Assembly: GCF_005473905.2 (NCBI RefSeq)
Contig: NZ_CP061336.1
Coordinates: 1,604,501-1,668,500, forward strand
Origin: Ruminiclostridium herbifermentans
GTDB taxonomy: Bacteria > Bacillota > Clostridia > Acetivibrionales > DSM-1351
DNA length: 64,000 bases
Direction: 5' to 3'
A program made the position numbers and the translations under genes. This document shows positions 2,670 through 59,020 of this stretch, piece by piece. Numbering within the stretch: position 1 is the first letter of the stretch; every line of letters begins with the position of its first letter. Below the pieces are notes generated by a model. That model did no database searches and was not told the origin of the DNA. It saw only the letters and a list, made by a program, of their open reading frames with translations.

Positions 2670-2975
2670 AATCAACAGTAAACTGCAAAAATAGTACTCA
2701 CGTGCAACATATATCTATTGCTTGCTCACGAAATTAACGCTTAAATAATTACGGTGGAGAAACAAGCACTTCCTCTTGATATATAACACAAAGGCATCTT
2801 GTCTTGGGTTAATACTCACAGCTACTGACTTCCGCTGTTTCGGTACATTACTTGTTCTTCACCTATTATTTCTAGCATCAATTTCTATTCGAGTTTCGCC
2901 AGTAGATATTTATTGCTACTTAGTACTATTTCTTGCATAATGACATCATTATTTATAAATATAATGTTGTTTTCA
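2670..2975 (+). repeat. Dispersed palindromic repeat R1, copy A
   Basis: Copy A of a repeat seen six times in this window (2.7, 13.2, 21.7, 35.5, 47.4 and 57.4 kb). The left arm (AAATAGTACTC, TATATCTATTGC, CTCACGAAATTAACGC, GGAGAAACAAGCACTTCC) is an imperfect inverted match to the right arm (ACTTGTTCTTCACCTATT, TTTCTAGCATCAATTTC, then TATTTATTGCTAC, AGTACTATTTCTTGC). The centre contains CTTGTCTTGGGTTAATACTC and CACAGCTACTGACTTCCGCTG. No reading frame is conserved between copies. This copy is one of the more diverged and lies between the YccF gene and the SLH gene. Confidence 0.8.
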
Positions 2976-13102: not shown

Positions 13103-13179
13103 GGAAATTATAAGTCAAGAAATAATATCAACTGGTTATATATTTTGGTTGTTGATATGTTGTAGAACATGAGGTTGTT

Positions 13180-13480
13180 ACAACGCAACATTTTCTGTAT
13201 ACCCATGTCTTTTTGCAAGAAATAGTACTAAGTAGCATATATATCTATTTGCGAAGTTCGGTTAGAAATTGATGCTAGAAAAAATAGGTGAAGAACAAGT
13301 ATTGCAGCCGACATAGCGGAAGTAAGTAGCTGTGAGTATTGACTCGAGACAGGATGCCTTTGTGTTATACTGTCGGCGGAAGTGCTTGTTCAGAACCGCA
13401 ATTATTTCAGCGTTAATTTCGTGAGTGAGCAATAGATATATACTGCACGGGAGTACTATTTAAGCAGTTTACTGTTTAAA
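13180..13480 (-). repeat. Dispersed palindromic repeat R1, copy B (inverted orientation)
   Basis: Same element as copy A in the opposite orientation. Starts near CAACATTTTCTGTATACCC and ends near AGTACTATTTAAGCAGTTT. The central GCCGACATAGCGGAAG, AGCTGTGAGTATTGACTCG and AGTATAA-like segments match the other copies. It lies in the convergent gap between the GH120 gene and metF. Confidence 0.85.
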
Positions 13481-13543
13481 ACCAGACATCCAACCTAGTT
13501 CCAATCAACATTCAAAATTTTTTATAAATATGAAAAACTCAAA

Positions 13544-21642: not shown

Positions 21643-21708
21643 GTTCTATTTGGTGTCCTATAACAATAATCCTAATAATTGAATAGCCTCCATGGTGCAT
21701 AGTGTGCT

Positions 21709-22047
21709 AGGAACTGTTAAGAAACAAAAAATAATATATATATCAATAGAAAACTGCATAAATAGTACTACCGTGTAATATATATCTATTGCTCGCTCAC
21801 GAAATTGACACCGAAATAATTGCGGTGGAGAAACAAACACTTCCGTCTACCGTATGACCAAGACATCTTGTCTCGGGTCAATACTTACAGCTACTGACTT
21901 CAGCTGTTTCGGATACAATAATTGTTCTTCATCTGTTATTTCTAGCATAATTCTCACTGAACTTCGCAATTAGATATATATTGCTACTTCATACTATTTT
22001 TTGCAATAAGACATTGGTATACATAAAATGTTGTTTTATCAGTTCCT
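21709..22047 (+). repeat. Dispersed palindromic repeat R1, copy C
   Basis: The best example of the element ends: it starts AGGAACTGTTAAGAAACAA and ends TTGTTTTATCAGTTCCT, a terminal inverted repeat. Inside are AAATAGTACTACCG, TATATCTATTGCTCGCTC, TTGTCTCGGGTCAATACT, ACAGCTACTGACTTCAGCTG and ATAGTACTATT-type arms shared with the other copies. About 20 bases before its left end (CCATGGTGCATAGTGT) also match the flank of copy E. It follows the activase stop. Confidence 0.85.
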
Positions 22048-22679
22048 TATTAAAATTATAATTTAATATTATTTACACCTATAAATCAATAAATATCAAC
22101 TATATATCAATAAGCAAATTAATACTATATTCCTAATTAAAAGCTGTAGATGTAAAAATTTATAAGTAATATACTTATTACTAAAATATTGTTTGTTTAC
22201 TTGGACAACAAATATTTGTACAATTAAGCATGGGAAAACTTTATTAAAAATTTGAAAATAAATGTATGAAATAGTTGGTGAATTTTTGAATTTTACTAAA
22301 AAATAGTAATTATGTTTTAGTATACAAAAAATTTATGTTTAAACGTATTCTATAAAATTTACTAGCAATAGAACTACTTTTTTATACAATAATTTGCAAA
22401 GCAATGAAGGATTTATATGAATGAGTAACGAATTTTAATAATATGGGATTTATATGTTAAACATTCTTCATTAAAATTGAAAAAGCAGCCCAAATTTGAT
22501 GTTTTATGTAATGAAGCCATTTCTGTCTTAATGTAAGAAAAAATCTATACTTTATACAAGCATTCAAATGTATAAAGACCTAAAGAGGATTAAATATTAC
22601 AGGAACATAAAAATCTCTATCCAAGGTTGCAATGCAAGCACAAAATATATAATATTCTTCAATAAACAGGGGGTAACAT
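22048..22679. other. Intergenic region before the chemoreceptor
   Basis: AT-rich, no supported gene. The chemoreceptor start has the ribosome binding site AGGGGGT. I looked for a cyclic-di-GMP riboswitch or flagellar-type promoter and saw neither. Confidence 0.35.
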
Positions 22680-35404: not shown

Positions 35405-35488
35405 CGAAATTAGACTCACAATCAACTTTAAGATAATAAGTTTGCTGAAGAAATAATTAATTGACATTATATAAAAGTATGAAACAAA

Positions 35489-35830
35489 AAGGGACTGTTG
35501 CAGAACAGAAAATTTGATATATCAATGGTAAATTGCTTAAATAGTACTCCCATGCAATATATATCTATGGCTCGCTCACGAAATTGATGCTGAAATATTT
35601 GTGGTGAAGAACAAGCACTTCCGCCGACCGTATTACACTCGACCTCCTTGTCTCGGGTTAATACTCACAGCTACTGACTTCCGCTGTGTCGGCTACAATA
35701 CTTGTTCTTCACCTACTATTTCTATCATCAATTTCTAACCGAGCTTCGCAATAAGATATATATTGCACTCGCGTACTATTTTAGCAATAAGTCAATGGTA
35801 TACAGAATTTGTTGTATTGCAAAAGCCTTT
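35489..35830 (+). repeat. Dispersed palindromic repeat R1, copy D
   Basis: One of the two best preserved copies. Starts near GGGACTGTTGCAGAACAG, ends near TTGTTGTATTGCAAAAGCC. The tip (35633-35693) can fold as a three-way junction: closing stem GCCGA with TCGGC, hairpin GTATTA with TAATAC, hairpin CACAGC with GCTGTG. Lies between the ABC-F gene and iorA. Confidence 0.88.
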
Positions 35831-36021
35831 TTTTGATATAAATTTAAGATAATAATAAAAAACTCATTACTATAATTTGCTTTTCTATTTTTACTTTTTA
35901 TCTTCAAAGCATCACATTTTATCATCAACATTTGCTTTATATTGATATTTGATTTAATATAAAAAGAGAGCGATTTTTAAGAATTTATTATATTAATTTG
36001 ATACTTAGCCTTTGGGCAAAT

Positions 36022-47333: not shown

Positions 47334-47420
47334 AAACAGAACTTGAAATCTCTTAAATGAGTTTTTGAGTTCATTAATTGCTTACTTTCCATATTCAACA
47401 TCCATGATTCATAGTGTATT

Positions 47421-47725
47421 AGGAACTGTTAAAACAACATTTTCTGTATACCAATGACTTATGGCGAGATATAGTACTAATTAGTAATATATATCTAATT
47501 GCAAAGATTGATTAGAAATTGATGCTAGAAACAATAGGTGAAGAATAAGTACTCCCGCCGACACAGCCGAAGTTAGCAGCTGTGAGTATTAACCTGAGAC
47601 AGGATTCTTTGGTAATACTTTCGGCGAAAGTGCTTGTTCTTCACCGTAATTATTTCAGCGTCAATTTTGTGGACGAGCAGTAAATATGAATTGTTCGGGA
47701 GTACTATTTAAGCAGTTTACTTGGG
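47421..47725 (-). repeat. Dispersed palindromic repeat R1, copy E (inverted orientation)
   Basis: Starts AGGAACTGTTAAAACAACA, the terminal sequence also found at copy C. The tip (47557-47625) is the best preserved three-way junction: closing stem GCCGA/TCGGC, arms CACAGC/GCTGTG and AGTATTA/TAATACT, all perfect. Lies between the second SLH gene and the DUF4097 gene. Confidence 0.88.
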
Positions 47726-47996
47726 CATTTTAACTTTTGAGATTTTAATAAGTACAATTATATATATACTTCTATATTATAAAGAGACTTCTATATTATT
47801 AAAAAACTTCTATAAATAAACTTCCATTATGTAAGACATTTTATAATTATTTACGTATAAAAGTATTGTAGAATAATTAGTTAAGATGCACTTTTTACAG
47901 TATATAGGTATATAAATAGTAACAAAAGATTTGCAGTGCATTTAGTAAGTATGCATGTATGTAAAGGTTATTAAAATAAAATGGAGGTTGAATATT

Positions 47997-57270: not shown

Positions 57271-57340
57271 ATAGCACCTTATAACAATTATATACAAAGC
57301 CGAAAAAGCTTGGGTCTACATTGTTACAAGGTGCTATATT
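57271..57340 (+). terminator. Hairpin after the frameshifted surface protein
   Basis: ATAGCACCTT (57271-57280) pairs with AAGGTGCTAT (57328-57337) and the neighbouring ATAACAAT with ATTGTTAC; followed by ATTATG, so the T run is poor. Confidence 0.6.
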
Positions 57341-57600
57341 ATGTTGTACAGAACAGTTAAATTCATTAAATAGCACGCCCTAATAATATATATCTATAGT
57401 TCACTCACGAAATTGACGTTGAATTAGCTTCGGTGCAGCAAGCACTTCCGATGACCATATGACAAGGGAATCCTGTCTCGGGTCTATAATCACAGCTACT
57501 TTACTTCTGCTGTGTCGGCTAAAATACTAGTTCTTAACCTACTATTTCTAGCATTAATTTATAACCGAGCCTGGCAATTATATATATTATACTATTTAAT
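57341..57600 (+). repeat. Dispersed palindromic repeat R1, copy F, touching the oxidoreductase stop
   Basis: Starts near GTTGTACAGAACAGTTAAA. Shares AAATAGCACGCC, TATATCTATAGTTCACTCAC, CCTGTCTCGGGTCTATAATC, ACAGCTACT, GCTGTGTCGGC and CTACTATTTCTAGCATTAAT with the other copies. Its right end (TATATTATACTATTT) runs into the last codons of the minus-strand oxidoreductase gene, whose stop is at 57598-57596. The expected outer right arm is missing, so this copy is truncated there. Confidence 0.8.
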
Positions 57601-59020
57601 ATCTGTTTTTCAATTTTGGTAAAGGTTTTTTACTAATTCTATTAGCTATAGTTCTTGCAACATGCACACCACTTGCACTTGCCTGAGAAAGACCTCTCGT
57701 AACTCCAGCACCATCACCGATGGCAAACATATTAGGTAGTTGTGTTTCAAGTTCATTAGTTAATTCAAGTCTTGAACTATAAAACTTAACTTCAACACCA
57801 TATAAAAGAGTATCGTAGTTTGCAGTGCCTGGTGCTATTTTATCCAATGCGTATATCATTTCTATTATATTGTCAAGATGCCTTTTAGTTAATACAAGAC
57901 TTAAATCTCCTGGAGTAGCATTCAATGTAGGATGCGTAAAGCTCTGGCTAAGTCGGTGGGCATTTGTTCTGTTTCCTTTTATCAAGTCACCAAATCTCTG
58001 AACAAGAACACCACCCCCAAGCATGTTAGATAGGGACGCAATCCTCTTGCCATACTGATAGGGTTCATTAAATGGTTGGGTGAATCTATTGCTTACTAAC
58101 AGGGCAAAGTTTGTGTTTTCACTTCGAAGCTGAGGGTCAGTATAGCTGTGCCCATTAACAGTGATTATATCGTCAACATTTTCAGATACAACATGTCCAT
58201 AAGGATTCATGCAAAAAGTACGCACCAAATCACCATATTGCTTTGTCCTATAAATTAGTTTTGATTCATAAACTACATCTGTTATATGTTCAAATACTTT
58301 TGCAGGAAGCTCAACACGTACACCGATATCAACCTGATTGTTTATCAAATTTAGCTTCAGCTGTTTGCATTGCTTAGAGAACCATTCAGCACCAGATCTG
58401 CCTGGTGCAGCAATCAAATAATTACAATTAATACTTTCACCGTTATACAAGTCTAATTGATAACCGTCTTGTGAAGGCATGATGTTTATAACTTGAGTAT
58501 TGCACTTGATTTCTAATAGCTTTGTAAGATGATTGTACATGCCTTTAAGTATCTCTACATTATTTTCTGTTCCAAGATGTTTTACAGCAGCTTGCAATAA
58601 ATGAAGATCATTTTCAATGGCTTTTTTTTCAATTATTTTAGCTGCATCAGTGTATGTGGAATACTTTTCTTTAGTTGCTCCAAATTCAACATTGACACTA
58701 TCAACATAATTGATTAACTTCATAACGTCGGCATCATCCAGATAATCATTTAACCAGCCGCCAAACGCTGTTGTAAAATTAAATTTGCCATCAGAAAAAG
58801 CACCTGCGCCACCAAACCCACGCATTATGTCACAGCTTTTACATCTAACGCAATCTTTTATTTTATTAGCAACAATAGGACAATTTCTGTCAAATATAGT
58901 ATTTCCTTGCTCGATCATCAACACCTTTAGCTGAGGGTTTAGCTTTGTTAACTCGTAGCCTGCAAATATTCCTGAGATACCACAACCAATAATAGCAACG
59001 TCGTAATTTAAAATCTTCAT
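57596..59020 (-). CDS. FAD-dependent oxidoreductase (COG2509 type)
   Basis: 474 residues from the ATG at 59020 (KILNYDVAIIGCGISGI); longer starts at 59032 and 59053 are in frame but are not behind a ribosome binding site. Rossmann FAD-binding motif GCGISGIFAGYEL (residues 10-22), a Cys-rich segment (CPIVANKIKDCVRCKSCDIM, about 50-70), GGAGAFSDGKFNFTTAFGGW, and the C-terminal FAD contact MFAIGDGAGVTRGLSQASAS. This is the COG2509 FAD-dehydrogenase family found widely in clostridia; substrate unknown. The Cys pair spacing hints at a bound cluster or zinc. Its start codon overlaps the stop of a 16-codon leader reading frame (ATGA). The C-terminus ends in repeat R1 copy F. Confidence 0.88.
   Translation of the reverse strand: MKILNYDVAIIGCGISGIFAGYELTKLNPQLKVLMIEQGNTIFDRNCPIVANKIKDCVRCKSCDIMRGFGGAGAFSDGKFNFTTAFGGWLNDYLDDADVMKLINYVDSVNVEFGATKEKYSTYTDAAKIIEKKAIENDLHLLQAAVKHLGTENNVEILKGMYNHLTKLLEIKCNTQVINIMPSQDGYQLDLYNGESINCNYLIAAPGRSGAEWFSKQCKQLKLNLINNQVDIGVRVELPAKVFEHITDVVYESKLIYRTKQYGDLVRTFCMNPYGHVVSENVDDIITVNGHSYTDPQLRSENTNFALLVSNRFTQPFNEPYQYGKRIASLSNMLGGGVLVQRFGDLIKGNRTNAHRLSQSFTHPTLNATPGDLSLVLTKRHLDNIIEMIYALDKIAPGTANYDTLLYGVEVKFYSSRLELTNELETQLPNMFAIGDGAGVTRGLSQASASGVHVARTIANRISKKPLPKLKNRY

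Follow-up and report, generated by a model that had tools for sequence, protein, structure and literature searches.

The noncoding segment near 35.5 kb of the window (the whole 64,000-nt stretch analysed) raises two questions: what kind of element it is, and what its fold does. The first-pass annotation had described it as one of six copies of a large hairpin repeat, R1, with arms that are inverted, imperfect repeats of one another and a tip that forms a three-way junction. It had also suggested a mobile origin and could name no matching element.

Copies in the window and their distribution

Six R1 copies were recovered in the window by BLAST and nhmmer. Independently, a covariance model gave exactly six core matches (E 1e-20 to 3e-34), and all six copies are intergenic (Table 1). 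The description of the layout proved accurate: arm complementarity is 66-73%, and the tip contains the closing stem GCCGAC/GTCGGC together with the hairpin stems GTATTA/TAATAC and CACAGC/GCTGTG.

Table 1. R1 copies in the window and parts of copy D (window positions; the strand listed for a core is the one with the better fold)
Feature	Position	Strand	Basis
R1 copy D, whole element	35491-35829 (339 bp)	- (RNA-strand reading)	End search; nhmmer envelope (35484-35835); lower folding energy on the minus strand
Copy D, TwoAYGGAY-like structured RNA core	35581-35734	-	R1 model, 163.9 bits; RF01731, 33.9 bits (under the cut-off of 43)
Copy D, tip hairpin 1, CACAGC...GCTGTG; loop in better copies C(AGGAA)G	35666-35688	-	Sequence; alignment; pair counts
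Copy D, tip hairpin 2, GTATTA...TAATAC; inner loop in better copies GAC(AGGAT)GTC	35630-35664	-	Sequence; alignment; pair counts
Copy D, left terminal inverted repeat GGGACTGTTGCAGAACA	35491-35507	+	Genome pattern search; end search
Copy D, right terminal inverted repeat, degenerate	35813-35829	-	End search
R1 copy A	2650-2953, core 2731-2884	-	BLAST/nhmmer; covariance model
R1 copy B	13165-13499, core 13266-13419	+	BLAST/nhmmer; covariance model
R1 copy C	21705-22053, core 21802-21954	-	BLAST/nhmmer; covariance model
R1 copy E	47416-47751, core 47516-47667	+	BLAST/nhmmer; covariance model
R1 copy F, eroded ends	57329-57607, core 57410-57560	-	BLAST/nhmmer; covariance model

Copies were also collected genome-wide, as the first-pass annotation had proposed. 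By the covariance model, the R1 core occurs at roughly 85 loci of the window's genome (G000; one contig of 4.82 Mb), each locus being counted once though many score on both strands. This copy number is far above chance. Other Ruminiclostridium genomes gave between 0 and about 100 matches, and the top two were those of R. cellobioparum DSM 1351 and R. cellobioparum subsp. termitidis, with about 100 diverged copies each. The phage and viral collections searched contained no match. Of 32 G000 copies flanked by genes on both sides, 23 are located between tandem, 8 between convergent and 1 between divergent genes. The statement that R1 always follows the 3' end of a gene is therefore nearly always true, the divergent copy being the exception.

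Two further observations concern the surroundings and range of the repeat. At six loci in G000 (L006, L010, L012, L013, L014 and L016), the flanks adjoin a second repeat of about 100-150 bp, possibly another miniature transposable element (MITE) used as a target. The R1 tip pattern is also matched by a contig of a more distant clostridium, Clostridium frigoris (L189), to which the R1 model gives 29 bits.

Family and fold of the core

The default Rfam scan of the window returned no match. In a permissive scan, the copy at 35.5 kb scored below the 43-bit cut-off of RF01731, TwoAYGGAY (Table 1), and better copies elsewhere reached it: G000:2533023 (55.3 bits), L003 (52.8 bits) and another copy (43.0 bits) in G000, as well as L037 (45.7 bits). 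In the reverse direction, a model restricted to Ruminiclostridium copies matched TwoAYGGAY copies in an unrelated clostridial family (E about 0.002-0.006). Given the RF01731 scores and the reverse search, we assign the R1 core, on sequence and model scores, to a diverged branch of this known RNA family. The first-pass annotation had taken a clear match to a catalogued RNA family as grounds for abandoning its reading. For the core such a match exists, with the best copies at 53-55 bits, and the mobile-element part of the reading survives it.

The TwoAYGGAY RNA was reported by Weinberg et al. 2010 (PMC2864571). R1 shares with it the long stem, the three-way junction, the two GGA-loop hairpins and the inner helix. 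It differs in that its AGGAN loops are one base shorter than AYGGAY, and in that the RNA lies within an element of about 340 bp with inverted-repeat ends, present in tens to about 100 copies per genome. The terminal loops read AGGAN in R1-type copies, ATGGAT in L072 of the same genome, and ATGGAC twice in the copies of another clostridial genome, G093. RF01731 belongs to Rfam clan CL00106, which also includes E. coli CsrB.

The fold was evaluated by strand preference and by covariation. First, the strand opposite to the orientation originally given was the more stable as RNA in 32 of 33 G000 copies, as judged by folding energy; the constrained strand of the 35.5-kb copy is the minus strand. 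In addition, when the G000 consensus is set against that of its congeners, 15 pairs differ on both sides, 14 of which are still Watson-Crick, whereas 6.4 double changes are expected under independent change. Finally, an alignment of 44 copies contained 134 compensatory double-change cells, compared with 35 in the shuffled control and 17-42 in controls with slid partners. An alignment of 76 copies, made to fit the structure and containing six rows from the reverse strand, gave corresponding values of 625, 203 and 61-109. Double compensatory changes occur in helices 1-6, and the three-way junction, closing stem and two hairpins are supported by covariation. A GCGAG/CGGGAG internal loop is common to different species. 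The covariation test proposed in the first-pass annotation thus upheld its suggestion that the folded form matters, and we regard it as settled that the R1 core is a multi-copy structured RNA, conserved and belonging to a known family.

Paired changes could also arise without any RNA function if one arm of the palindrome were copied from the other, or if sequence were exchanged between copies. Long palindromes are prone to templated repair, which would favour this explanation. Moreover, some sites common to both R. cellobioparum genomes show replacement of the copy by another subfamily, a flipped copy or loss of the tip, so exchange between copies also occurs. However, such correction would yield perfect arms and two equally stable strands, whereas one strand is favoured, and the unpaired loops are kept across species and families. 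We therefore consider it very unlikely that the paired changes reflect correction or exchange with no RNA function.

Some individual loci illustrate these rearrangements. At L038/L039 and L204/L243, the two R. cellobioparum subspecies share the insertion site and the element has opposite orientations, which suggests inversion between its own arms. At L224/L261 and L211/L287, the subspecies differ in the subfamily or tip present at the same site, as though dispersed copies had exchanged cassettes.

Ends, target duplications and mobility

RF01731 was found in 35 of 391 genomes of the class, 26 of them with more than one copy (at most seven candidates were scored per genome). G093 contains nearly identical copies, 284-285 bp long, with common ends (CTGYRATTCGTAATAT.../...ATTACGAATYGCAG). 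These copies stand between direct repeats of 8-11 bp, such as ATCATATAA, ATCCATAA, ATCGCTTAT and TTACCAAAAC; the left end has about 30 matches in this genome. Shorter forms without the RNA, 121-134 bp in length, carry these ends too, and one of them (L114) shows a clear target duplication, CTCATATA. Since the RNA-less forms share the ends and one carries a duplication, the ends suffice for transposition, with the RNA as cargo.

In G000, the R1 ends, GGGRCTGTTGCAAAACA, are remnants of transposon-like inverted repeats. The end search gave no signal of target duplications around R1 copies in this genome, and its RNA-bearing copies are old. Target-site duplications, which the first-pass annotation had suggested looking for, are thus present in G093 and gave no signal in G000; the mobile origin that it suggested stands on the inverted-repeat remnants of G000 and the duplications of G093. 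A search of G000 with the end sequence returned 21 matches, namely R1 copies, short derivatives or lone ends. An autonomous copy was sought among these matches and at the G093 loci with the left end only. No transposase lay beside R1 ends in the nine G000 regions examined or at the six G093 loci, in keeping with the earlier statement that none is present here.

The G093 copies demonstrate a non-autonomous MITE, and we infer the same for R1 in the window's species. R1 resembles bacterial MITEs in being short and intergenic, in having inverted-repeat ends, high copy number, deletion derivatives and no ORF found, and, as seen in G093, in its target duplications of 8-11 bp. It differs from them in that the cargo is a conserved structured RNA and in that the matching transposase was not found at the loci checked. 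The new finding is that TwoAYGGAY RNA is the cargo of a miniature transposable element.

The element is mobile and strongly palindromic, and the tip deletion and in-place flip show structure formation or recombination as DNA. The fold could accordingly be thought to act as single-stranded DNA or a DNA hairpin in transposition or replication of the element, and not as RNA. We judge such a role highly improbable: the RNA-less forms of G093 imply that the core is dispensable for transposition, and a DNA role explains neither why the GGA loops are conserved nor why one strand is preferred.

Several derivatives were noted. Three G000 loci, L051 (158 bp), L053 (50 bp) and L055 (55 bp), consist of little beyond the two terminal repeats, and the 17-bp ends of L053 are perfect. 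At the other extreme, L119 in G093 is an enlarged element of 598 bp with additional GGA hairpins. It contains an extra palindromic module, GGACCACAGCAATCTTTGATTGC..., which also occurs in forms of 397 bp.

GGA loops and a proposed role as CsrA decoy

To our knowledge, no function has been established for TwoAYGGAY RNA in the time since 2010, and it is classed as cis-regulatory. The Rfam type Cis-reg contrasts with the lack of orientation preference among R1 copies: relative to tandem neighbour genes in G000, the RNA is on the same strand in 10 cases and antisense in 13. Because the RNA lies on either strand, we argue against a cis-regulatory role. No promoter above chance was detected in the window copy.

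CsrB and RsmZ bind CsrA in gamma-proteobacteria, and R1-type RNAs resemble these sRNAs in their paired A(N)GGA-loop hairpins, in Rfam clan and in the presence of csrA in carriers; G000 itself encodes two csrA genes. They differ in that CsrB has many hairpins in one gene, whereas the R1-type RNA has two GGA hairpins and many gene copies. Gardner and Eldai (PMC4333381) proposed from motifs that TwoAYGGAY binds CsrA, with a CsrA-sequestering role of the CsrB/RsmZ type; an experimental test of this binding was not found in the literature searched.

The conservation of the loops was compared between species. In R. cellobioparum, hairpin 1 has an AGGA-type loop in 39 of 40 copies and both hairpins have their GGA loops in 34 of 40, compared with only 9 of 30 copies in the window's species, where most copies, including most of those in the window, appear to be decaying relics. 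The same loop, C(AGGAN)G, is closed in R. cellobioparum by the stems CGGC/GCCG, CAGC/GCTG, CAAC/GTTG or GTGAC/GTCAC. The GGA loops thus persist while the stems swap. At 16 orthologous loci of the two R. cellobioparum genomes, core divergence was 0.90%, whereas the outer element diverged by 3.4% and the intergenic and coding flanks by 2.6% and 2.8%, respectively. These copies were preselected for high core score, which biases core divergence downwards. In the top-scoring subset, the core diverged by 1.1% and the intergenic sequence by 2.7% (P 0.01), and the contrast between core and outer element weakened (P 0.07).

The occurrence of the RNA was also compared with that of csrA. Of 125 genomes with csrA, 30 carry RF01731, compared with 5 of 266 lacking csrA (P 7e-12); equivalently, csrA occurs in 30 of 35 carriers and in 95 of 356 non-carriers. 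All 12 families with RF01731 contain csrA, compared with 37 of at least 96 families (P about 3e-6). Four of the five csrA-negative carriers are assemblies that are 80-95% complete. Flagellin, used as a control, tracks csrA closely, with 2 RF01731 carriers among 17 flagellin-positive, csrA-negative genomes, so that csrA was not separable from motility in this sample and the link of the RNA could be to motility or lineage.

This leaves room for the same mobile element and RNA acting on a target other than CsrA, such as ribosomes, a nuclease or the mRNA of the element's own transposase, with the csrA association a by-product of motile lineages. The inseparability of csrA and flagellin fits such a target, as does the conserved GCGAG/CGGGAG internal loop, which CsrA alone does not explain; the CsrA role itself is a prediction. 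On the other hand, the persistence of two GGA-loop hairpins through changes of stem, the clan shared with CsrB and the family-level co-occurrence with csrA all favour CsrA, and we regard a non-CsrA target as rather unlikely.

We predict that the RNA probably works by offering its paired GGA loops to CsrA. In the CsrA decoy model, R1 is a MITE whose interior is a TwoAYGGAY-family RNA, built from a long imperfect stem, a three-way junction and a pair of hairpins with A(N)GGA loops. The RNA would be made by read-through or by transcription of the element, and its paired loops would bind a CsrA dimer as CsrB/RsmZ do, so that less CsrA would be left for flagellin and other mRNAs. A decoy site would be gained with each insertion, and the RNA would persist through benefit to the element or the host, most copies in the window's species now being relics. 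We consider the arguments for and against this combined reading, a MITE whose TwoAYGGAY RNA titrates CsrA via paired GGA loops, to be evenly balanced. More tentatively, and leaning slightly against it, we propose that the element spreads the decoy RNA and that transposition itself determines how much of this sponge for a global regulator is present.

Finding TwoAYGGAY RNA as mobile cargo with up to about 100 copies per genome, and with GGA loops that outlast their stems, changes what to test. The question of a CsrA sponge in Clostridia becomes testable in a cultured cellulose-degrading species, R. cellobioparum. We know of no CsrA-sequestering RNA shown earlier in Gram-positive bacteria and of no sponge delivered by a MITE; if true, R1 would be the first of both.

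The surroundings of csrA were also inspected. The RNA lies beside csrA at 1 of 20 loci: the R1 copy at C1:162741-162889 of G000 (L162:3242-3390) is located between fliW-csrA and a flagellin gene, adjoining a duplicated csrA-flagellin pair. It was rejected as a conserved csrA-linked RNA; since its GGA loops are lost and the 19 other csrA loci have no copy, its position is probably chance. In genome G407, the extra csrA genes do not lie beside the RNA; two such paralogues (L291:4698-4970 and L292:2051-2323) each adjoin a tyrosine-recombinase-like gene, and one of the two is followed by a flagellin gene.
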